Shown here piece by piece: positions 1 through 10,266 of a stretch of 64,000 nt of DNA; positions within the stretch are counted from its first letter, which is position 1; each line of letters begins with the position of its first letter. This DNA is from Pseudomonas sp. RSB 5.4 (GTDB taxonomy: Bacteria; Pseudomonadota; Gammaproteobacteria; Pseudomonadales; Pseudomonadaceae). The notes beneath the pieces are model-generated. The model saw only the letters and a list, made by a program, of their open reading frames with translations. It had not been told where the DNA came from and did not search any database. The position numbers and the translations under genes are program-made. The stretch is from positions 1,578,501-1,642,500 of the forward strand of contig NZ_CP146986.1 of the NCBI RefSeq assembly GCF_037126175.1, given 5' to 3'.

Positions 1-2918
1 TCGTCGATCACCAGAATATTCAGGCTTTGCCCGGATCCACGGTTTTCGGTTTCTGCCGGCGGCAGTTCCGCCAGCGGTTCGAGGGTGGTCAGATCCAGCG
101 TGACTTCGATCTGCGTGCCCTTGTGCAACACACTGGTCAGGGTCAACTGGCCGCCCATCATTTCGCACAGCGTGCGGCTGATCATCAGCCCCAGGCCGGA
201 ACCGCTGCGTGCGGACTGGTTGTGGTTGGCGGCCTGGGTGAACGGACTGAACAGGCGTTTCTGATCCTCTTCACTGATCCCGTGCCCGGTATCTTCGACC
301 CGGATGACCACACTCAGGTGCTGATCATCGGCTTGAGGCTCGACCCGCACGCTCAGGCGCACCTGCCCTTCGGCGGTGAACTTGATGGCGTTGCTCAACA
401 GGTTGGAAATGATCTGCTTGAAGCGCAAGGGATCGACCAGCACATCACGATTGGCCCGCGCATCCAGGTCCAGTTGCAGTTGCAGATGCTTCTGCCGCGC
501 CAGCCCTTCGAAAATGCGCACCACCGATTCGAGCAACTCGCGCAAGTTGGCGCGCTCCGGCGCCAGCGACAGGCGCCCGGATTCGATGCGGGCAATGTCG
601 AGGATATCGCCGATCAAATCGAGCAAGCCGCGGGCCGCGCCGGAGGCGACTTCGATGGCAAAGCGATCCATCACCCCTTGATCGGCTTTTTTCAGCGCCA
701 GTTCCAGCATGCCGATCACCGCATTCATTGGTGTACGGATTTCATGGCTCATGGTCGCGAGGAACGTAGTCTTGGCGCGGTTGGCGTCATCGGCCCCCTC
801 CTTGGCTTCGCGCAACTCGGCAAGCAAACGCTGGCGCTCGCTGACGTCGATCCAGCCGGCAATCATCCCGCTGACGTCGCCATTGCTGCTGCGATACGGC
901 AGCATCCAGTGGTAAATGGTCAGCACCCGACCGTCGACCACGCTCAGGCTGCGATCCTGGATCTGTGGCAAGCCATCCTGCATGACCTGCTGGTAATCGC
1001 GGTGATAGGTCGCCGCTTCATCCGGATTGCCCAGCACGCCTTCAAGTACCGTCTTGCCGATCACCTGCTCGCGCTCGACACCGAACACCTGCAGATAACC
1101 GGTGTTGCAGATCAACAAGCGCCCGTCACGATCGCGCACATAAATCGGATGCGGCGTGCCGTCGATCAGTACCCGCATGAACTCGACCTGATCGTTCAAC
1201 GCCTGCTCGGCCTGCTTGCGCTTGCGCATCAGCATCCGCAGGTAGGCGATCCAGCCCAGCGCAATCAACAACAATGCGGCAGCCGCGACAAAGCCCTGAA
1301 TGATCGCCGTGCGATTACGCAGCCAATAGCTGTCGCCCACCACCACTTCACTGCGCCAGCGGTTGGTCAATTCGTCCATTTCTTCCGGGGCGATACTCAG
1401 CAAAGCCTTGTCCAGAATCGAATACAGCTCCAGCGAGCCACGGGCGGTGGCAAATGCGATCCGGGCATTCATCACCCCCACGGTGCTGGTAATGCGCAGG
1501 CGATCACGGTACTGACGGGAAATCATGTAACGCGCGGTAATCAGCGAATTGACGGCCGCGTCGGCCTCGCCGTTGACCACCATGGCCATGGCGTCCTGAG
1601 CGTTATCGGCGTCGACCAGGTGGATGTTCGGGTATTGCTCGGTGAGCATGTCGCGCGTGGCATTGCCGGTGATCACCGCCAGGCGTTTGCCGGCCATGTC
1701 GTCCAGCGTGCTCGGGCTGCCGGCGGTTGTGCGGCTGACCAGGACAAAGGGCGTGGCGAGGTAAGGCCGGGTGAAGCGCAGGACATTTTCGCGCTCGGCG
1801 CTGGGCGTCAGAGTGATCAGCAGGTCAGCCTTGTTGCTGACGATCGATTCGATCATTTCGCCAACCGAGTTCACCCGCTGCACATCGAACTTCAACCCGG
1901 TGCGCAGCGAAACCTTGGACAGCACGTCGGCGCTGATCCCGCGAAACTCGCCTTCCTCGGTATAAAAGGACAACGGCAGAAAACTGTCGTCGACGACCAC
2001 GCGCAGCCGTGGATGCTTGTCCAGCCAGCGCTGTTCGCTGACGCTGAAATGCAACTGATGCTGGCCCGGCATGCTTGCGCCGCCGGCGCTCCAGCGGCGC
2101 AGGATGGTCATGCGTTCGGTGACCGGAATCTCCAGCAGCGCGGCGTTGATGATGCGCAGCAGACGCGGATTGTTGCGGCTCAGGGCGAACGAGAAGTTGC
2201 TCACTTCCATCCGCGAAAAGTCGGCCAGTTGCACGTTGTTCAGGTAGTTCTTGTTGATCAGGTAATTGGCACTGATCGCATCGCCGAGGTACACATCAGC
2301 CTGCCCGAATGCCACCGCACCAAGAGCACTGAGCGTTGACGGATACAGCTGCAGCTTCGCTTTTGGATAAAAGGCTTCGACGGTCTCTGGCGGCAAGTAG
2401 TGATAGAGCATGGCGACACGCTTGTCGGCCAGCTCCGGATCAAGGTTCTGGCTGTCGCCCACCCGGCTGACCAGCGTCGGCTGATCTTCGGCGTAGGCCT
2501 CGGACAGCACCAGTTCGGGGTCGGCGGCTTCAAACTCGTTGGCATTGCCCAGCAGGTCGATGTCACCGGCCTTGAGCGCCGACAACACCTCGGCCCGCGA
2601 TGAATAGCGCTGCACTCTGACTTTGACGTGCAACAGCTCGCCGAGCAAATGGGCGTAGTCGGCCGTTACGCCTTCATAATCCCGACCATTGGTGGTGATA
2701 CTGAACGGCAAGTAATCCGGTGCCGCAGACCCGAGCACCAACGTGCCTTTGCTGCGCAGCCAGCTCCAGTCGGCCTCATCCAGGCCGACGCTGTAATCGC
2801 CCACGCTGGAGCGCCCGAGCAGGTGCAGGCTCTGTGGCGGAGCCGCCCACGCCAAGCCGCTGGCCAGTGAGCAGAGCAAGACTGCGCCTGCCAGGCATCG
2901 TTGAAGAAGTCTGTTCAT
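1..2918 (-). CDS. BvgS/RocS-like hybrid sensor histidine kinase, 3' end outside window
   Basis: This is an unorthodox inner-membrane sensor kinase whose C-terminus runs off the left edge. About 972 codons are visible. A signal peptide (MNRLLQRCLAGAVLL...) is followed by two tandem periplasmic solute-binding (venus flytrap) domains, roughly residues 45-270 and 285-510, and a transmembrane helix near 535-555. Next come a PAS domain near 575-700, a HisKA domain with MSHEIRTPMN (His725) and an ATPase domain with DTGHGIS and GSGLGL motifs. The last visible residues, LNILVIDD, open a receiver domain. BvgS, EvgS and P. aeruginosa RocS1 share this architecture. The ATG directly abuts the TGA of the response-regulator gene, so the two are translationally coupled. 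With the neighbouring REC-EAL gene and fimbrial operon it probably senses a periplasmic cue controlling adhesion. Confidence 0.93.
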   Translation of the reverse strand, partial: MNRLLQRCLAGAVLLCSLASGLAWAAPPQSLHLLGRSSVGDYSVGLDEADWSWLRSKGTLVLGSAAPDYLPFSITTNGRDYEGVTADYAHLLGELLHVKVRVQRYSSRAEVLSALKAGDIDLLGNANEFEAADPELVLSEAYAEDQPTLVSRVGDSQNLDPELADKRVAMLYHYLPPETVEAFYPKAKLQLYPSTLSALGAVAFGQADVYLGDAISANYLINKNYLNNVQLADFSRMEVSNFSFALSRNNPRLLRIINAALLEIPVTERMTILRRWSAGGASMPGQHQLHFSVSEQRWLDKHPRLRVVVDDSFLPLSFYTEEGEFRGISADVLSKVSLRTGLKFDVQRVNSVGEMIESIVSNKADLLITLTPSAERENVLRFTRPYLATPFVLVSRTTAGSPSTLDDMAGKRLAVITGNATRDMLTEQYPNIHLVDADNAQDAMAMVVNGEADAAVNSLITARYMISRQYRDRLRITSTVGVMNARIAFATARGSLELYSILDKALLSIAPEEMDELTNRWRSEVVVGDSYWLRNRTAIIQGFVAAAALLLIALGWIAYLRMLMRKRKQAEQALNDQVEFMRVLIDGTPHPIYVRDRDGRLLICNTGYLQVFGVEREQVIGKTVLEGVLGNPDEAATYHRDYQQVMQDGLPQIQDRSLSVVDGRVLTIYHWMLPYRSSNGDVSGMIAGWIDVSERQRLLAELREAKEGADDANRAKTTFLATMSHEIRTPMNAVIGMLELALKKADQGVMDRFAIEVASGAARGLLDLIGDILDIARIESGRLSLAPERANLRELLESVVRIFEGLARQKHLQLQLDLDARANRDVLVDPLRFKQIISNLLSNAIKFTAEGQVRLSVRVEPQADDQHLSVVIRVEDTGHGISEEDQKRLFSPFTQAANHNQSARSGSGLGLMISRTLCEMMGGQLTLTSVLHKGTQIEVTLDLTTLEPLAELPPAETENRGSGQSLNILVID

Positions 2919-3545
2919 TCAGATGAGGTTGTTACGCTTGGCGAAGTCAGCCAGGTACACCACCGACTTGACGTTGAGCTTTTCGATCAGGCGGGTTTTG
3001 TAAGTGCTCACGGTCTTGTTGCTGATCAGCATCGCGTCACCGATTTCCTTGTTGGTCAGCCCCATGGAGAGTTGCTGCAGAATCACCAGCTCGCGGTCCG
3101 ACAGACTTTGGATCAACTCCAGATCGGTCGCTTCGACATCGCTGCGGCGCACCGAGCTGTTGGCCAGATTGGGGAAGAAGGTGTAACCGTCCATCACAGT
3201 CTTGATCGCCTTGACCAACTCATCCAGCTCATTGGTCTTGGAAATGAAACCGGCGGCGCCGGCCTTCATGCAGCGCATCGAATAGAACAGCGCTGACTGC
3301 GAGGTCAGCACCAGAATCTTGCTGGGCAGGCGCAATGCGGCGATACGGCTGAGCACTTCAAGCCCATCGAGCCTTGGGATGGCGATGTCGAGAATGATCA
3401 GATCCGGCAAGTGTTCGCGGGCCAGTTGCACGGCGTCGGCACCGTTGTCAGCCTCGGCGACCACTTCGAACTGCTCGTGCTGCAACAGCATCTTGACCGA
3501 AGAGCGAATGAACGGATGGTCATCCACAATCAAAGCTTTATACAT
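2919..3545 (-). CDS. BvgA/RocA-like LuxR-family response regulator
   Basis: A 208-residue response regulator. The receiver domain (about 1-120) has the acidic pair VDD, phospho-acceptor Asp53 (LIILD) and a switch Lys in ISKTNE. A C-terminal LuxR-type helix-turn-helix (about 145-205) contains LSDRELVILQQLSMGLTNKE. Closest architecture is BvgA, EvgA and RocA1. I start at MYKALIVDDH because the in-frame upstream extension has no resemblance to a receiver. The gene lies between the REC-EAL gene and the hybrid kinase on the same strand. It is the best candidate to bind the TGTAGGAAATTTC motifs found in this locus. Known relatives activate or repress fimbrial genes; the target here is inferred. Confidence 0.93.
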   Translation of the reverse strand: MYKALIVDDHPFIRSSVKMLLQHEQFEVVAEADNGADAVQLAREHLPDLIILDIAIPRLDGLEVLSRIAALRLPSKILVLTSQSALFYSMRCMKAGAAGFISKTNELDELVKAIKTVMDGYTFFPNLANSSVRRSDVEATDLELIQSLSDRELVILQQLSMGLTNKEIGDAMLISNKTVSTYKTRLIEKLNVKSVVYLADFAKRNNLI

Positions 3546-3657: not shown

Positions 3658-3670
3658 TGTAGGAAATTTC
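3658..3670 (-). promoter_or_regulatory. Candidate BvgA/EvgA-type box upstream of response regulator gene
   Basis: The 13-bp sequence TGTAGGAAATTTC (plus strand) lies about 113 bp before the response regulator start, just after the stop of the REC-EAL gene. It is identical to the copies at 4975-4987 and 10111-10123. TAGGAAA is the complement of the TTTCCTA heptad bound by BvgA. Binding by the local regulator is inferred; an autoregulatory site is the simplest reading. Confidence 0.55.
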
Positions 3671-3684
3671 TGGAAAGCGTCCGC

Positions 3685-4890
3685 CTAATCTGAGGGCACG
3701 TTCTGCGCCTCGAATGCTGCCTGGTGCAACCATTGCAGCAGGTCGTGCCCGGACATCGGCCTGGCCAGGTAAAAACCCTGGCCAATCTGGCAGCCCATGG
3801 CGACCAGTGCATCACGAATTTGCCGGCTGCTGACACCTTCGATCACCAGGGTCATGTCCAGCGACCGGGCCAGTGCCAGTGTGCTGGCCACCATGGCGCG
3901 ATTTCGCGGTTCACTCAAGTTATGCACGAACTGGCCATCGAGCTTGATCTGGTTGAATGGCAGTTGGCACAACAGCTTCAGTGACGAGAAACCCGAGCCG
4001 AAATCATCGATCGACAGACCACACCCCAGCATGCGCATGTGCAGCAGGTTTTCCTGAACCTGGGCATGCAGATCCAGCAGACCGTTCTCCGCCAGCTCGA
4101 ACATCAGGGCCGACCCGCAAATGCCATGACGCTGCAAGGTGCGCTGAATGTGCTCGATCAGACTCGGGCTGGACAATTGCGAAGCGTGCAGGTTGAACGC
4201 CAGTTCCAGGGCAATTCCCTGTCGGCGCAAAATACCGAGAATGTTCAGCCCCTGCTCGAACAACTGCTTGAACATCTCGTCAATCAAGTCGTAGGCGAGC
4301 ACCGCAGCGAGAAAGTCCTTGGGTAACAACAGTCCTTTTTCAGGATGTTCCCAGCGCACCAATGCCTCGGCACCGGCCAGCCGGCCGTCCCTCATCACAC
4401 GCTTGGGCTGGAACCAGCCACGGAACTCGCCCATGGCCAGGCCCCGGCGCACCTCTTCCTCGCTGGGCAACTCGGTGACGGCCAACGCCTGCAATAGAGG
4501 TGGCGGCGGACAACGGTAACGCTTGAGCAGCCGGCTCAGCGCACCCAATTGCAACGGCACATCGAGAACACCGAGCAATTGCAGGCCCGACAGACTCGCC
4601 ATCTGCCCCACCGCACGACGCAATTCCGGCTGGTGTTCGCTGAACAGGGCCACGGCTTTGACCAGTCCGATCGGACTGGCATAACGCAACAGCTCCAGGC
4701 AGTCGAGCCCCTTGCCCCCGAGGTCACACAGAACGATATCGACGCCGCCGCTGCGTTGCATGGCGATCATCGCCTGCTCGGCATCTTCGGCTTGCAGCAC
4801 GTCATGTATGCCGAGTTGGCGCAACATCCTGCCCAGAATATTGCGCTCGAACCCATGTTTTTCCATCACCAGAACACGTGGGGTGGTCAT
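3685..4890 (-). CDS. RocR/PvrR-like REC-EAL cyclic-di-GMP phosphodiesterase response regulator
   Basis: A 401-residue protein with an N-terminal receiver domain (about 1-125, Asp56 in IVLCD) and an EAL domain (about 150-390). Catalytic signatures are mostly retained: QP at 161-162, EAL at 175-177 within GAEALVRWEHP, FNLHASQL, IDDFGSGFSSL, KLD, IEGV and QGFYLARPM. It should therefore hydrolyse cyclic-di-GMP in the cytoplasm. P. aeruginosa RocR and PvrR have the same architecture and counteract cup fimbria expression next to BvgS-like kinases. The chosen ATG has a strong Shine-Dalgarno sequence, GGAGGT, four bases upstream; earlier in-frame starts precede or overlap it. It lies between the fimbrial operon and the response regulator, all on the same strand. 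Confidence 0.93.
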   Translation of the reverse strand: MTTPRVLVMEKHGFERNILGRMLRQLGIHDVLQAEDAEQAMIAMQRSGGVDIVLCDLGGKGLDCLELLRYASPIGLVKAVALFSEHQPELRRAVGQMASLSGLQLLGVLDVPLQLGALSRLLKRYRCPPPPLLQALAVTELPSEEEVRRGLAMGEFRGWFQPKRVMRDGRLAGAEALVRWEHPEKGLLLPKDFLAAVLAYDLIDEMFKQLFEQGLNILGILRRQGIALELAFNLHASQLSSPSLIEHIQRTLQRHGICGSALMFELAENGLLDLHAQVQENLLHMRMLGCGLSIDDFGSGFSSLKLLCQLPFNQIKLDGQFVHNLSEPRNRAMVASTLALARSLDMTLVIEGVSSRQIRDALVAMGCQIGQGFYLARPMSGHDLLQWLHQAAFEAQNVPSD

Positions 4891-4952
4891 CGTCACCTCC
4901 ATTATTTTGCAAACCTGAAGGCACAATGATGGCGGTTAGGCGGGCCTTTCGA

Positions 4953-4987
4953 GGAAGGATTTATCCCTGCGTCATGTAGGAAATTTC
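4953..4987 (-). promoter_or_regulatory. Candidate paired BvgA/EvgA-type boxes upstream of REC-EAL gene
   Basis: TGTAGGAAATTTC occurs at 4975-4987. Exactly 22 bp further toward the gene (4953-4959) is a degenerate copy, GGAAGGA (TCCTTCC on the coding strand). The site sits in the 139-bp gap between the adhesin stop and the REC-EAL start, about 85 bp before the start codon. BvgA dimers are known to stack at about 22-bp intervals, which matches this phasing. Function is inferred. Confidence 0.55.
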
Positions 4988-5029
4988 CCAAGACTTGTTC
5001 CGGCGTCCTCTGTGCCCAAGCCGTCGCGA

Positions 5030-6067
5030 TCAGTGATACACGACCTGCACCACCACGATGGCATTGAACGGCCCGACCTGCGGGTCACCCAGCGACACCA
5101 TGGACGCGCTCAATGGCACGTCGATATGGCTCACGTCCGCGGCAAAACTGGCCAGGTCGAACGGTTCGTTGATCGGCAGCAAGTTGTTTTTCGCATCGCG
5201 GATCTGGATCGCGAACTGGCTGTCCGCCGCCGGCAGAATGTTGTATTCGCCCTGCTGGTTGGCCGTCACGAACGTCGCACCGATATTGACCGGCGTGCTG
5301 CAATGCTTGTCCAGCGCCAGGCTGAACGGCTTGGTCGGGTTGGGCGGCGAGAAACCGGTGCTGGTTTTCTGCACCACGCCGAAGTCGACGATGCCCGGCT
5401 CCGGCGTCACTGTGACATCAACCGTGCAGGCAGTGCCGACGATGTTCTGCAAACCGCTGAGCTGATAACGGAAGTTGCCGAACGGGTTGGACGGCCCGCC
5501 GTTCAGACCGTATAGACCGTCGAACTGGAACACGTCGTAGGTATCCTGCGTCGGACGCTGCAACGGTAGCAGTCCGCGTTTGCGGATCACCACCTGAAAC
5601 GCAATGTTGGGGTAGACCATCGAACAGGCTTTAACCTCATCGGCGGTGCCCGCCGTCGGACATCCCGGAGAAACGAACCCGGTGTTGACGCCCATCGCCG
5701 GGTTGGAACTCCAGTCGCCATCCCACGCCGTGACGCCTCGGTACACCAGACCGAACTCGATGCCCCATGGCGTGGCGTCCAGGCGTGCCGGGTTGCCGTA
5801 GAAATAGATCGGATCATTTTCGGCAAAGTGTATATCGTACGGCTTCCAGCACTGGGCCGGCACCACCTGGGTTCTTGAACGCCAGATGATCGTACCGTCG
5901 GGCACACTGTCCGGCACCGATACTGGGCCGATGTATTCGCTCAGATAGTCGCCATTGGTCATCGACTTGCAGAACAGCGCCATCGACGCCTGGGAAAACC
6001 CCAACAGCAACGACGCGACGCACACTTGCAGCGCCTTGCGTCGATGCCGGCGCAACCAGCCCGTCAT
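5030..6067 (-). CDS. Fimbrial tip adhesin / minor pilin
   Basis: A 345-residue exported protein, last gene of the fimbrial operon. A twin-Arg-rich N-terminus and hydrophobic stretch (about residues 10-35, ending near SMALF) form a signal peptide. The N-terminal half is a unique, presumably ligand-binding lectin-like domain. The C-terminal part (from about VGTACTVDVTVTPEPG) looks like a pilin domain with the usual Cys pair (ACTVDV...KHCSTP) and a terminal donor-strand-type beta pattern ending VVQVVYH. This two-domain layout is typical of tip adhesins. The ATG overlaps the chaperone stop as ATGA, so I reject longer in-frame starts. The bound receptor cannot be predicted. Confidence 0.85.
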   Translation of the reverse strand: MTGWLRRHRRKALQVCVASLLLGFSQASMALFCKSMTNGDYLSEYIGPVSVPDSVPDGTIIWRSRTQVVPAQCWKPYDIHFAENDPIYFYGNPARLDATPWGIEFGLVYRGVTAWDGDWSSNPAMGVNTGFVSPGCPTAGTADEVKACSMVYPNIAFQVVIRKRGLLPLQRPTQDTYDVFQFDGLYGLNGGPSNPFGNFRYQLSGLQNIVGTACTVDVTVTPEPGIVDFGVVQKTSTGFSPPNPTKPFSLALDKHCSTPVNIGATFVTANQQGEYNILPAADSQFAIQIRDAKNNLLPINEPFDLASFAADVSHIDVPLSASMVSLGDPQVGPFNAIVVVQVVYH

Positions 6068-6801
6068 TTCTGCACGCCCTTGCACACGTTGGCGGCGCAC
6101 TGGAACAGCGAATCAGTCTGACCACCGAAGTCGTTCATGTTCAGCACCCGCAAGGTGTTGAACCCGGTTTGGCTCAACGCAAAACGGGTATTGCTCATCG
6201 GTTTGAGCATCACCGTGTCGATCGGCATCGCGGTCTTCTCGGGGCCTGCCTGCAATCCGACGATGGTGATGTGAAACGGCGTCGGATTATCCACCAGCAA
6301 CGCCTTGGCAGCCGGGTCGATCCTGATGTTCAGCCCCAACGCCAGATCGGCGCCCCGCTCTCTCTTCACCCCGCTGGGACGGTAGAACAGTTTGATTTTC
6401 GATTGCAGCGCAATCTGCATCGCGTTGACCGCCTGAGTCTTGGGCGGAATCTCGCGGATGTTCAGGTAGAACACCGATTCGCGATCCGTGGGCAACACGG
6501 TATCGGGCAGTTTGACGATGCGCAGAATCGTGCTTTCCTTGGCCTCGATCCGTTGCAGCGGCGGCAGCACCATGAATGGCGAGCTGATTTTCTTGCCGCT
6601 TTCATCCTCGATCCATGACTGAATGACGAAGGGCAGTTCCGGGCTGCGATTGCCGACGGTGACACTCACCGACGGCGCGCCTTCTTCGAAAATCACCCGG
6701 GTCCGATCCGGCACCACCGCGGCGTTGGCCAGTAGCGGCAGACTCATGGACAGCGTCAGGAGCAGCGATTTGCAGCGCTGCAAGTTGGGTTTGCAATTCA
6801 T
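6064..6801 (-). CDS. Periplasmic fimbrial chaperone (PapD family)
   Basis: A 245-residue PapD-like chaperone that would bind pilin subunits in the periplasm and donate its G1 strand until usher delivery. A signal peptide ends near LLANA. The mature part starts with the typical VVPDRTRVIFEEG strand. It continues with FVIQSWIEDESG, the conserved PPLQRIEAKES...LRIV subunit-binding segment and FYLNIREIPPK. The second domain contains LYRPSGVKR-like KLFYRPSGVKRERG. Two Cys near the C-terminus (FQCAANVCKG) may pair. An SD-like GGAGAT precedes the ATG. It lies between the usher and adhesin genes and overlaps the latter by four bases. Confidence 0.93.
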   Translation of the reverse strand: MNCKPNLQRCKSLLLTLSMSLPLLANAAVVPDRTRVIFEEGAPSVSVTVGNRSPELPFVIQSWIEDESGKKISSPFMVLPPLQRIEAKESTILRIVKLPDTVLPTDRESVFYLNIREIPPKTQAVNAMQIALQSKIKLFYRPSGVKRERGADLALGLNIRIDPAAKALLVDNPTPFHITIVGLQAGPEKTAMPIDTVMLKPMSNTRFALSQTGFNTLRVLNMNDFGGQTDSLFQCAANVCKGVQK

Positions 6802-6832
6802 AGGAAATCTCCAGAAAAGTCAGGGCGCCGCC

Positions 6833-9280
6833 CTACAGGCAGCGCAAGGGATGCGAGACATTGGTCACGATGTCTTCGACGGGCAGTTCGGCCAGGGCGC
6901 AGCTTTTGCTGTCGTCCCAACGCGCCACAAGGCGAGCGTCGGTTTTCACGCCCAAGAGGTACGTCACTCCGTCCTCGCCGACGATGCCCACTTCCTTGTT
7001 GGTATTGCTGTCCTGAATCGAGGCCCCGAACGGCACTGCACTGCCATCTGCCAACAGCAGCGTGACGAACGCGTTGTGCCCCTGCCCCGCGGGGAAATTC
7101 ACGTAGCCGATCGCGCCTTCGGTCAGCGCCAGCCGTTGAATCGGGTTGCTGACTTCAGTGTTGAGCGGCAGCTTTTCCATGTTGACCCGGGCCTCGTAGG
7201 CCTGAAACGACGGCAGGCCATCCATGACGGCGTAACCGTCCTGGTTGGTTCGGGCACGACCGGCAAACGCCACGTCCGGCACGCCGTCGGTGGACACCAG
7301 CAATCGGGTATCGCCGTTCGAGCCGTTGCCGTGGGCCGCCACGCCATAGCGGGTCACCACCAGCGAGCTATCAATTTCACCGGTGGCCGAGCTGTAGGTA
7401 CTGCCATCGGTGGTGACCGAGGCATTGGCGCGATACGTCGAGGTGCGTTTGCCGACGTAGGCATTGACGTAGCGGTTGTCGCCGACGCCGCCGTAAACCT
7501 GATAATTCACGCCCTCGCCAGTGTCGTGGCTGTAACCGACATTGCCGGCATAGCCGCCGGAACCGCTGTGCTGGATGTTGCTCGACATCGTCGAATTGCC
7601 GCCCAGCGGGATGGTCACTCCGAGGTAGATCTGCGAGTCGTTCTGCAAGGCATTGCGCGTCTGGTACGCCGACAGGTTGACGTTGATGTTCTTGACGTTG
7701 CCCAGGGAAAAACTGCGCGCCAGCGACACGCCGACCCGATCGGCATCCGGCGCATCCCAATAGGTGGAATGGTCGAAGGACAGGCTGGTGGACAGCCACG
7801 GGAAACTCTTGGCGAGGATCACCGAATAGCGCTGCTTGCCGGCGTTCATCGAGTAGGAGTCGGGGTCACCGATAAACTGCGAAAAGTTGGTGAAGGTCTT
7901 GTCGGAAAAGCGATAACCGAGGAAGCGCAGATCGGTGCCAATGCCATCGAAGTGCTTGGAATAGTTGATGCGGTACGAGTTACCGGTGACTTGTTCACCG
8001 TTCCAGCGCAACTTGGCGCGGGAGGTGGTGACGTCGGCCGACAAGGCGCCGAACGCGCCCAGATCCTTGCCCAGCCCGACGGCATGAGCCAGATAACCCG
8101 AGGAAGCGAGGACGCCGCCATACGCGGTCCAGTCATGGGGCAAGCCGTACGCCAGTTCCGAGGCGACAAAACCCGGTTCGATCCCGCGCGCGCCGTCCAG
8201 CCGTGGCTGGCCGCCGGACAGCTTGTAGCGCAACTCGCCTTCACGGGCGAGGAACGGCACCGCTGCGGTGGATACGGTAAATTTCTGCTCGGTACCGTCC
8301 TCTTCGCGCACAGTGACGTCCAGCGTGCCCTGGGCGCTGCTGTTCAAGTCCTGAATGCTGAACGCGCCCGGAGTCACGGTGGTGGAATACAGCACGCGCC
8401 CCTGCTGGGAAACCGTGACGGTGGCATTGGTGCGTGCCAGACCACTGATCAACGGCGCATAGCCGCGCAGATTGGGCGGCAACATACGGTCGTCACTGCT
8501 CAGGGTAGCGCCACGCAGGGCGAAGGTATCGAACACGTCCGAGTTCAGGTAATCCTCGCCCACCGACAGTTTCGAGCGGATCGAGGGCAGCGCGCGATAG
8601 GCGTACAAGCGGTTCAGCTGAAACGGCTTGTCGCCGATGTCATCACCCTGGCTGTCGTTGCGTACTTGAGCCTGATAGTCCGCACGCACGCGCCAGGTAT
8701 CGAAGTTCAGACCGGCCGTGCCGTAGCTCTGCACCGAATTCGAACGAGTGGAATTGCCAGACGCCGATGACTGACGCGAGTTGGCGATCACCCGGTAATC
8801 GAGCAGCGCGCCATTCAAGCCATTGCTCCAGGCTGCCGGCGGAATGTAGTTGGGATCGTCGTACTCGAACGACGCCTGGGGAATACTGATTGCCAGGCGT
8901 GCCAGGTTCTTCAGGTATTTGATGCTCACGCCGGGCACGCTGGCCAGATCCACGCACTGCCCGTTCGCCGTACGCGGCAGGCTTTCCAGCAGTGGCGGCT
9001 TGAGGCCGAAGGTTTGCACCAGATCCAGCGTCAGACAGGCATAACTCTGCTGTGGGTCAGCGCCGGGTTTGAATTCAATCGAGCGCGTGCCGAAGTACCG
9101 TTGGTTGACAGCAATGTCGAGCAAGTAAGTGCCGGGCACGGTGTAGTCGGCATGCACAAATTGCCCGAGGCTGACATTCTTGTCGTTATCAATATTCAGA
9201 AAGTCCGAATTGAACTCGACAGCCTGTGCCTGGCTGATTGCCAACCAAAGAGAGGACAGAATGAAAGTGCGACGATACAA
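6833..9280 (-). CDS. Outer-membrane fimbrial usher (PapC/FimD family)
   Basis: An approximately 815-residue outer-membrane usher that would assemble and secrete the pilus. A signal peptide (LYRRTFILSSLWLAISQAQA) precedes an N-terminal domain opening VEFNSDFLNID. Then come the 24-strand pore, with typical GEDYLNSDVFDTFALRGATLSSDDRMLP and GYAPLISGLARTNATVTV segments, a plug, and a C-terminal domain ending with two Cys (KSCALAEL...PLRCL). No ATG is available near the N-terminus. I prefer a TTG at 9280 preceded by AGGG. A GTG at 9331 is in frame, but it lies in the loop of the terminator hairpin after the pilin gene and would add an unlikely leader before the signal peptide. Confidence 0.9.
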   Translation of the reverse strand: MYRRTFILSSLWLAISQAQAVEFNSDFLNIDNDKNVSLGQFVHADYTVPGTYLLDIAVNQRYFGTRSIEFKPGADPQQSYACLTLDLVQTFGLKPPLLESLPRTANGQCVDLASVPGVSIKYLKNLARLAISIPQASFEYDDPNYIPPAAWSNGLNGALLDYRVIANSRQSSASGNSTRSNSVQSYGTAGLNFDTWRVRADYQAQVRNDSQGDDIGDKPFQLNRLYAYRALPSIRSKLSVGEDYLNSDVFDTFALRGATLSSDDRMLPPNLRGYAPLISGLARTNATVTVSQQGRVLYSTTVTPGAFSIQDLNSSAQGTLDVTVREEDGTEQKFTVSTAAVPFLAREGELRYKLSGGQPRLDGARGIEPGFVASELAYGLPHDWTAYGGVLASSGYLAHAVGLGKDLGAFGALSADVTTSRAKLRWNGEQVTGNSYRINYSKHFDGIGTDLRFLGYRFSDKTFTNFSQFIGDPDSYSMNAGKQRYSVILAKSFPWLSTSLSFDHSTYWDAPDADRVGVSLARSFSLGNVKNINVNLSAYQTRNALQNDSQIYLGVTIPLGGNSTMSSNIQHSGSGGYAGNVGYSHDTGEGVNYQVYGGVGDNRYVNAYVGKRTSTYRANASVTTDGSTYSSATGEIDSSLVVTRYGVAAHGNGSNGDTRLLVSTDGVPDVAFAGRARTNQDGYAVMDGLPSFQAYEARVNMEKLPLNTEVSNPIQRLALTEGAIGYVNFPAGQGHNAFVTLLLADGSAVPFGASIQDSNTNKEVGIVGEDGVTYLLGVKTDARLVARWDDSKSCALAELPVEDIVTNVSHPLRCL

Positions 9281-9310
9281 GGGAGAAACCCTATCGAATG
9301 ATTCAAACGC

Positions 9311-9337
9311 AATAAAAAAAGGGGTTTGCACCCCTTT
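9311..9337 (-). terminator. Intrinsic terminator/attenuator between pilin and usher genes
   Basis: On the minus strand AAAGGGG and CCCCTTT pair (7 bp, 6-nt loop) and are followed by a run of T. This is a canonical rho-independent terminator inside the fimbrial operon. Partial readthrough would give far more pilin than usher, the usual stoichiometry for fimbriae. Confidence 0.8.
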
Positions 9338-9340
9338 CTC

Positions 9341-9370
9341 TTACAACTGATAAAGGCTTATCAGTTGTAA
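9341..9370 (-). promoter_or_regulatory. Perfect 13-bp stem-loop overlapping pilin stop codon
   Basis: TTACAACTGATAA and TTATCAGTTGTAA are perfect inverted repeats around a 4-nt loop. The left half on the mRNA includes the tandem TGA TAA stop codons of the pilin gene. It lies just upstream of the terminator and could protect the pilin mRNA 3' end from nucleases. Confidence 0.7.
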
Positions 9371-9894
9371 GCCACTGTGAAGTTGGCAACGCTGTCAGCT
9401 TCACCGGTAGTGACGGTGGCCGCCGTCGCTTCGTACATGGCAGCAAACGAAACGGTGTTGTTGCCGTTCTGCAGAACTACCGGAGCCACTTGTTCTTTAC
9501 CGTTGTCGAGCATTTCGCCAGCACTGGCCTGCAGGCGGATCCCGACGTTCTGCGCCAGACCGGTAGTAGCGAACAGCTCTGGAACGGTTGGATCCTGCAC
9601 ACCGGTGAAGGTGAAACGGGCGTTTTTCTGGGTCGAGGTGTCGCACTCGGTGAGGACGATGTCGAACTTCTCAGGGCTCGAACGATCGCCGATTGCCTTG
9701 AAGGTGTTGGCAGGTACCTGACCCAATGGAACGGTCTGGTCCAGGGAGTTGGCATCGATACCGCACGCGCCGGAAACGATCTCACCGGTGAAGCGAATAG
9801 TGCCCGGGTTGCCAGTAGGCGGAGTGGCGGCGTTCGCCAGGGAAGCCAGACCCATTACAACGGTAGCGGCAGTAACAACGACAATCTTTTTCAT
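9361..9894 (-). CDS. Major fimbrial pilin subunit (type 1/Cup family)
   Basis: A 177-residue type 1-type pilin. A signal peptide (MKKIVVVTAATVVMGLASLANA) is followed by a short N-terminal extension that would serve as the donor strand. The Ig-like pilin domain has the conserved Cys pair (SGACGID and LTECDTS). The C-terminus, NFTVAYN, shows the alternating pattern and penultimate Tyr expected for chaperone recognition. It is the promoter-proximal gene of the operon, followed by a stable stem-loop and an attenuator. The upstream 300-bp region carries two boxes resembling BvgA-family sites. Confidence 0.94.
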   Translation of the reverse strand: MKKIVVVTAATVVMGLASLANAATPPTGNPGTIRFTGEIVSGACGIDANSLDQTVPLGQVPANTFKAIGDRSSPEKFDIVLTECDTSTQKNARFTFTGVQDPTVPELFATTGLAQNVGIRLQASAGEMLDNGKEQVAPVVLQNGNNTVSFAAMYEATAATVTTGEADSVANFTVAYN

Positions 9895-10088
9895 GACTGA
9901 ATCTCGATGGGATAGTTATTTTTGAAACAACTACTCGCCCTTCTGAGTTCGCACCTGAAATACATTGAAAACACACCGTCGATTGTTTGACTTGTAACGG
10001 TCGATGCTGACAGCGGATCTTTCAGGGCGTAGAAAATGACGAGCACTTTGTTCCGCTGAAAATCATCGCTGACGGCCACTGGCGAACA

Positions 10089-10123
10089 TGTAGGATTCGT
10101 CACTGCAAACTGTAGGAAATTTC
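10089..10123 (-). promoter_or_regulatory. Candidate paired BvgA/EvgA-type boxes upstream of fimbrial operon
   Basis: TGTAGGAAATTTC at 10111-10123 and TGTAGGA at 10089-10095 are spaced exactly 22 bp apart, about 195-220 bp upstream of the pilin start. The longer copy is identical to those at 3658 and 4975 beside the regulator genes. The rest of the interval between the pilin gene and the transporter gene (9895-10266) shows no gene. Confidence 0.6.
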
Positions 10124-10266
10124 CCGCTTAACCTGCCCGGGCCGGTGCACGTCCGGGTATGCGTCTATAGTCAAACCCGTGGCAACGCCTCTTCAGGCGT
10201 TTCTGAATCCTGTTGAAAAAAACATCATTCAAAACAGGTGTGGCAGTCCTTCTCCCTGAGAAAAAA

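Follow-up and report, generated by a model that had tools for sequence, protein, structure and literature searches.

A candidate BvgA-class operator shared by regulator and fimbrial promoters in a Roc island of Pseudomonas sp. RSB 5.4

Gene Content of the Roc Island

We analysed a 64,000-nucleotide stretch of the genome of Pseudomonas sp. RSB 5.4 (contig NZ_CP146986.1, positions 1,578,501 to 1,642,500 of the forward strand; hereafter the window), in which an initial annotation had pointed out an identical 13-bp motif, TGTAGGAAATTTC, in three intergenic gaps of a fimbria/regulator locus. The locus encodes a Roc (regulation of cup) system composed of a RocS-type kinase, a BvgA/EvgA-type regulator (RocA), a REC-EAL phosphodiesterase (RocR), and two chaperone-usher operons (fim1 and fim2). 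The genes of this island are all found on the minus strand in the order fim1, rocR, rocA, rocS, a pair encoding a DUF4398 lipoprotein and an OmpA protein, and fim2, the last lying just left of the window (Table 1). Each of the two operons, fim1 and fim2, encodes a full set of chaperone-usher components, in the order pilin, usher, PapD chaperone, tip protein in fim1 and pilin, PapD chaperone, usher, tip protein in fim2.

The regulator encoded between the sites had been described as BvgA-like, and its best solved relative is EvgA (E 4.8e-40), a member of the same family whose recognition helix, SNKTVSTYKSRLMEKL, is almost identical to that of the regulator, SNKTVSTYKTRLIEKL. Its score against the NCBIfam EvgA equivalog NF007419 (181.6 bits) is below the cut-off of 251; it is 55% identical to RocA1 of P. 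aeruginosa PA7 and its gene adjoins that of the unorthodox kinase. The best solved relative of the REC-EAL protein is RocR of P. aeruginosa (3sy8); the REC-EAL protein is 43% identical to RocR of PA7. Its score against the NCBIfam PvrR equivalog NF052596 was 228.3 bits, below the cut-off of 580, as was that of PA7 RocR itself (255.4). The island has in common with the Roc1 system of P. aeruginosa (rocR-rocS1/rocA1 and cupC) an unorthodox kinase with SBP_bac_3 domains, a NarL-family regulator, a REC-EAL protein, and boxes that reach 12/14 in PA7 (see below). Unlike in Roc1, the regulators and two chaperone-usher operons are united here in one island, and rocR and rocA-rocS run in the same direction. 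The OmpA protein encoded between rocS and fim2 resembles LptF, with a score below the cut-off.

Table 1: Genes and candidate operator elements of the island (window positions; match scores refer to the consensus TARGAAATTTCYTA).
Feature	Positions	Strand	Remarks
rocS-type unorthodox histidine kinase	1..2918, plus 724 bp left of the window	-	SBP_bac_3 in two stretches, PAS, HisKA, HATPase, REC, Hpt
rocA-type response regulator	2919..3545	-	REC and LuxR/GerE helix-turn-helix; BvgA/EvgA family; candidate binder of the boxes
Candidate RocA box before rocA	3660..3673	-	Gene strand CCAGAAATTTCCTA; scores 12/14; centred 121 bp upstream of the rocA start; lacks a phased partner
rocR-type REC-EAL protein	3685..4890	-	EAL catalytic residues retained; altered receiver (EK as acidic pair, Val for the conserved Lys)
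-10-like hexamer CATCAT	4926..4931	-	55 bp from the centre of the rocR box; putative
Weak phased partner of the rocR box	4955..4968	-	22 bp nearer the gene; 8/14
Candidate RocA box before rocR	4977..4990	-	TGGGAAATTTCCTA; 13/14; centre 93 bp before the start; same position in most clade relatives
fim1 tip protein, probable adhesin	5030..6067	-	C-terminal Fimbrial domain
fim1 PapD-type chaperone	6064..6801	-	PapD type
fim1 usher	6833..9331	-	True start may be inside the open frame
fim1 major pilin	9361..9894	-	Fimbrial domain
-10-like hexamer GATGAT	10062..10067	-	55 bp from the centre of the fim1 box; putative
Phased partner of the fim1 box	10091..10104	-	Repeats TGTAGGA at exactly 22 bp towards the gene; full palindrome matched at 7/14
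Candidate RocA box before fim1	10113..10126	-	CGGGAAATTTCCTA; scores 12/14; centred 225 bp upstream of the pilin start
Candidate box before fim2	Fourth exact copy, left of the window	-	Gene strand AAGGAAATTTCCTA; centred 156 bp upstream of the fim2 pilin

Rarity of the 13-mer

The three copies of TGTAGGAAATTTC in the window (3658-3670, 4975-4987, and 10111-10123, all on the plus strand) were confirmed as exact. A genome-wide count had been set beforehand as a check on the motif. The whole genome (6,243,169 bases, one contig) was found to hold four exact copies, at 1576214, 1582158, 1583475, and 1588611, all on the same strand and all within one island of 12.4 kb (1576214-1588623). The fourth copy, 2.3 kb left of the window, is upstream of the second fimbrial operon, fim2. 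Copies with one mismatch number 14 in the genome and are scattered; the reversed control gave none at up to one mismatch. Calibrated on these one-mismatch neighbours, the expected number of exact copies is 0.36 per genome and 0.0007 in the island, the bounds of which were set after the copies had been seen, so that island probabilities are post hoc. Dinucleotide shuffles of the window (n = 100), searched with up to two mismatches, gave a mean of 0.48 matches, with three or more in 4 of the 100; the genome-wide count is a much stronger test of the motif than these shuffles. A literature search with the letters of the site gave, among the matches listed, papers that are all on other subjects by title.

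Resemblance to BvgA Operators

The 13-mer corresponds to one heptad and most of its mirror-image heptad. In Bordetella, the high-affinity primary BvgA site of Pfha is TAAGAAATTTCCTA, to which BvgA binds as head-to-head dimers, additional dimers following at intervals of 22 bp (PMC7250471). The four island boxes are identical to this site at 11-12 of the 14 positions (2-3 of 14 differ), and the last 11 letters of all four on the gene strand, GAAATTTCCTA, are those of the Pfha primary site, in line with the likeness to BvgA-type heptad sites that had been claimed for them. The inverted heptads of a BvgA-class operator are present at all four boxes; two further shared traits, described below, are the TGTAGGA heptad repeated 22 bp away at two boxes and the lack of a good sigma-70 promoter. 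The arrangement differs from that of Pfha, which takes three dimers, in that one strong site is accompanied here by one weak partner, and by none at rocA.

When A or G is permitted at the third place of the BvgA site and at its mirror place, one obtains the consensus TARGAAATTTCYTA, which the four boxes match at 12-13 of 14 letters. A scan of the genome with this consensus at up to two mismatches returned 28 sites (17 with the reversed pattern), four of which are the island boxes; these also account for two of the three one-mismatch sites of the genome. The chance that four of 28 sites fall in one given stretch of 12.4 kb is 3e-7, with the reservation that the stretch was chosen post hoc. In E. 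coli, half-sites TGTAGGA and TTCTTAC are visible before evgA of strain MG1655, and no convergent palindrome above 10/14 was found in the 6 kb evgA region, so the half-sites seem to be differently arranged there.

Two further matches in the island reach 11/14. One, TGTAGGACGTTTCCCA, lies left of the window (L019:7618-7633), without a phased partner, around 125 bp before the lipoprotein/OmpA pair. The other, before fim1C (L019:15301), was set aside as it overlaps a probable ribosome-binding site. The genome encodes four ushers scoring above the cut-off, two of them outside the island, and no box of at least 11/14 was found in the 10-12 kb read around each of these two.

Recurrence of the Boxes in Related Genomes

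A comparison of the gaps in related genomes had been suggested, and we carried it out on two sets of related loci (18 and 11) and on the genome itself, counting boxes of at least 12/14 within 300 bp upstream. The first set came from the RocR search and consisted of L119-L137, the top of a list of 80 loci (Pseudomonas, Achromobacter, and one cyanobacterial). The cyanobacterial metagenome-assembled genome (L136) was scanned and then left out of the upstream-box count, and L241 was scanned and not counted. Loci drawn from different searches overlap in genome, so that the upstream-box, geometry, and RocR-clade counts are not mutually independent. A box was present upstream of rocR in 13/19 cases in the 18 loci, in 11/15 in the 11 loci, and in the single case of the genome itself (1/1). 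Genes matching the fim1A or fim2A pilins had one in 6/11, 5/6, and 2/2 cases, or 13 of 19 in total, some of the pilin matches of the 18-locus set being distant (24-38%) and possibly not first genes. Among other open reading frames the count was 8/209, and among operon-internal fimbrial genes it was 0/36, with two reaching 11/14. In the RocR clade to which the protein of the window belongs (see below), the best box reaches at least 12/14 in 19/26 members and is centred 91-96 bp before rocR in 17/26, measured from where the aligned protein begins. Alignment of the upstream regions showed the box to be kept while the flanks drift.

The self-control site before rocA is the weakest and least conserved of the four. 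In the 18-locus set a box was found upstream of rocA in 14/26 cases, often one common to the adjoining rocR. Five loci from close relatives (84-88%) keep the CTACA adjoining the rocA box and, at a fixed distance, a GTGTA block followed by T; one of their rocA boxes scores 9/14. In two Achromobacter genomes, a perfect TAGGAAATTTCCTA is found upstream of a rocA-like gene and of a fimbrial gene (L132:3080-3093 and L135:3098-3111).

The boxes also recur in P. aeruginosa, where RocA1 is reported to activate cupC and RocA3 to activate cupB, with RocR counteracting both (PMC12051241, PMC3083521). In DNA affinity purification sequencing, RocA regulators were found to bind the roc1 locus, cupB, cupC, and lepBA, and autoregulatory loops were reported for RocA1 and RocA3 (PMC12051241). 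In strain PA7, located through its RocR protein, we found a 12/14 site in the rocA1-rocR gap, a 12/14 site around 140 bp before the first fimbrial gene (pilin) of an operon taken for cupC from its neighbouring HptA-like and hybrid-kinase genes, as published, and another site before a rocR3-like gene.

The 13-mers might be relics of a promoter duplication, or products of chance, without present function, and elsewhere in the genus the exact motif does occur at numerous positions that are not near roc/cup genes. Outside the heptads, however, the four sites have different flanks, in relatives with diverged flanks the sites keep fixed distances, and no box at 12/14 was found before any of the 36 operon-internal genes. 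We consider this explanation highly improbable.

Phasing and Promoter Geometry

According to the initial annotation, a second copy of the core follows 22 bp downstream at 4975 and at 10111. The direction is that of transcription, on the minus strand, and before fim1 the heptad TGTAGGA is indeed repeated exactly at 10089, 22 bp from the box; before rocR, at 4953, what agrees is AGGA with some flanking letters rather than a full copy. TGTAGGA is also repeated exactly before fim2, 22 bp nearer the gene, as part of a partner that matches the full palindrome at 8/14. Phasing of about 22 bp, as in BvgA-family operators, is borne out across related roc/cup loci: among 64 distinct strong sites, 31 are accompanied by a partner of at least 9/14 at 21 or 22 bp, against 0-3 partners at each of seven control spacings for the same sites. 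In the genome itself, five TGTAGGA pairs are spaced 12-36 bp apart, three of them at 22 bp, and the reversed control gave two pairs. In a set of 30 genomes with one listed pair each, 22 bp was the most frequent spacing, seen in 6 of 28 distinct strings, and 33 bp came next with 4. Tandem repeats of an 11-bp unit, TGTAGGAGCTG, present at several places in two genomes (G039 and G100), mimic 22-bp phasing and must be excluded from spacing counts.

Of 13 non-redundant fimbrial promoters, two of them from this island, 9 have the centre of a -10-like hexamer at exactly 55 bp from the box, the mean per offset being 0.23. If this hexamer is the -10 element, the box would be located at about -64 and the partner at about -42, abutting the -35 position, as the proximal BvgA dimer does at Pfha (PMC7250471). 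A consensus sigma-70 promoter was not found in the three stretches scanned, which is as expected for activator-dependent promoters. At rocR promoters, the top offsets of the hexamer are 55 bp (5/30) and 33 bp (4/30), again 22 bp apart. The promoter and site sequences are related to each other and the counts overstate independent events.

The boxes could also be operators for RocA as a repressor, or for a regulator of both signs that activates the fimbriae and represses rocR or rocA. The near equality of the 33-bp and 55-bp offsets at rocR would leave room for this, and the rocA box stands alone, so that the geometry is not uniform. The activation of cupC and cupB by RocA1 and RocA3 in P. aeruginosa (PMC12051241, PMC3083521) speaks against it, as does the 55-bp spacing at fimbrial promoters, which fits a dimer placed directly next to the -35 region, the arrangement of Bvg-activated promoters (PMC7250471). 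Repression of either kind is, in our view, quite unlikely.

A Model of the Roc Circuit

The rarity, position, spacing, and conservation computed for the sites, together with the identities of the genes, favor a model, to which we give a probability of roughly 0.8, where the 13-mer is most of a BvgA-class operator for a RocA-type regulator and phosphorylated RocA binds and activates fim1, fim2, rocR, and probably rocA-rocS. The ideal operator would be an inverted heptad pair, TAGGAAA-TTTCCTA, for one head-to-head RocA dimer. Once RocA is phosphorylated by the RocS-type kinase, a first dimer would fill the strong box. A second would take the weaker partner, which is displaced by 22 bp towards the promoter and lies on the same helical face, beside the -35 position. 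Two dimers together could then recruit RNA polymerase to promoters that have no good sigma-70 sequence. Under these conditions fim1, fim2, and rocR would be switched on, and rocA-rocS would probably activate itself through its single weaker site. RocR is predicted to lower cyclic di-GMP in turn. As RocR, by lowering cyclic di-GMP, counteracts cup expression in P. aeruginosa, self-activation would be paired with a delayed brake in this circuit. Binding, activation, the direction of the feedback, and the activity of RocR are what we infer here.

The initial annotation had suggested a closed circuit in which the regulator controls the fimbriae, the phosphodiesterase, and itself through three sites. 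This is still the best reading and is supported by the sequence comparisons, with the arm to rocA as its weakest part. The circuit is also larger than first described: the three sites stand, a fourth exact site lies before fim2, and a weaker one lies before the lipoprotein/OmpA pair. To the earlier description are added the fourth site with its second operon, the measured geometry, the presence of the sites at known Roc loci, the weakness of both the self site and the partners, and the change in the RocR branch discussed below.

Several observations weigh against this model. At the rocA box (3658) a phased partner at 22 bp was not found (5/14 at best), and the gene-side partners of the four boxes score 8, 8, 7, and 5 of 14, all under the 9/14 rule applied to the related loci. 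In the 11-locus set, a box of at least 12/14 precedes rocA in 2 of 15 cases. In an unselected set of 25 sites elsewhere in the genus, a 22-bp partner was found in 3/25, compared with 0-2 at control spacings. The exact 13-mer is present in 128 of 249 genomes of the genus, and roc/cup homologs lie within 1.5 kb at 6 of 29 such loci (one per genome); the 13-mer alone was for this reason rejected as a marker of roc targets in other genomes. In PA7, no convincing site was found at cupB, the RocA3 target, the best upstream match in the stretch read being 11/14 at 327 bp, compared with the published PA14 peak at 214 bp. At cupA, a presumed non-target, there are two 11/14 matches, so that 11/14 alone means little.

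The RocA paralogs of the same genome (47-55% identical, at 496813, 2679225, and 3263771) raise the further objection that the boxes may be read mainly by another RocA/EvgA-family regulator, or by several, the circuit then not being closed on the local one. The recognition helix is almost unchanged in all three, two of them are preceded by weaker phased sites, and in P. aeruginosa RocA1, RocA2, and RocA3 are reported to have highly similar motifs in DNA affinity purification sequencing, though mostly separate in vivo targets (PMC12051241). The paralog sites, however, differ in their centre (for example TAGGACTTATCCTA and AAAGACATTCCCTA), whereas the island sites share GAAATTTC, and all four exact copies surround the local regulator. 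We regard control by a paralog as unlikely and retain the local RocA as the regulator of the island. The sites before the two paralogs (55% and 54% identical; L237:6492-6527 and L238:7094-7129) are pairs of heptad sites of 10-11/14 exactly 22 bp apart, the nearer one around 100 bp before the start of the paralog itself; their central letters differ as if each had its own operator variant.

The model offers a concrete operator and a recurring promoter geometry for Roc regulators, with a strong box, a partner at 22 bp, and a -10 element at 55 bp. An operator that has only four exact copies in its genome may help regulon prediction in environmental pseudomonads, and the mechanics of Bordetella BvgA can be tried on fimbrial promoters elsewhere.

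The Receiver of RocR

RocR of the window keeps the residues aligned with E175, N233, E265, E268, D295, D296, K316, E352, and Q372 of PA7 RocR; the second Glu of EGVE is Ser. In the receiver, EK replaces the acidic pair ED (residues 10 and 11 of PA7 RocR) and Val replaces the conserved Lys, residues that PA7 RocR keeps, while the phosphoacceptor Asp is retained. The score against Pfam REC is 23.3 bits, below the cut-off of 30.2. In receivers generally, loss of the second acid and of the conserved Lys hinders phosphotransfer.

In a maximum-likelihood tree of 55 rows (54 different proteins, L297 and L245 being the same; matches that began late or spanned fewer than 300 residues, including L295 and L296, were left out), RocR of the window falls in a clade of 26 rows with support 100/100. 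Within this clade the Asp of the second acid is found in 2/26 members, the Lys in 6/26, and both in 0/26; in the other 28 distinct proteins the Asp is found in 27 and the Lys in 25. This type of RocR is patchy: of 398 genomes of the genus, 32 have REC-EAL genes that match it at E up to 1e-100. The genome itself also has a RocR of the intact kind, beside another roc-like gene set (L236:955-2115).

As no clade member keeps both the second acid and the Lys, RocA may be the main control of the phosphodiesterase, which, judged from these residues, seems no longer to be under the usual control by phosphorylation. The relay of P. aeruginosa is branched, with a single kinase that feeds both RocA1, the activator, and RocR, the phosphodiesterase, in parallel. 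We tentatively suggest, at somewhat less than even odds, that in this lineage RocR has left the branched Roc phosphorelay: its receiver would no longer be phosphate-switchable, and the kinase would reach it only via RocA and the box 91-96 bp before rocR, the parallel branch having become a serial, delayed brake on two fimbriae. The phosphoacceptor Asp, kept in 21/26 members of the clade, and the Lys in those that retain it argue against full decay of the receiver. The intact RocR group has the box before rocR as well, and its origin therefore did not coincide with the receiver loss. Systems of this kind are already known; it is in the phosphorylation control of RocR that this one seems to differ. 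The clade could provide a natural case where transcriptional control may have replaced a phosphorelay branch. In two genomes, rocR-like genes carry an internal stop codon (L292 and L294), and the branch may be decaying there.

A Phased Pair Outside the Island

Elsewhere in the genome, at 507923-507951 (L236:13924-13952), a TGTAGGA pair spaced exactly 22 bp is located around 50 bp before a gene for a ShlB/FhaC-type two-partner secretion transporter and around 7 kb from the second roc-like gene set. The lepBA two-partner system is a reported RocA1 target in P. aeruginosa (PMC12051241). The same 29 letters are present, among the matches listed, in five other genomes (G016, G019, G055, G105, and G111).

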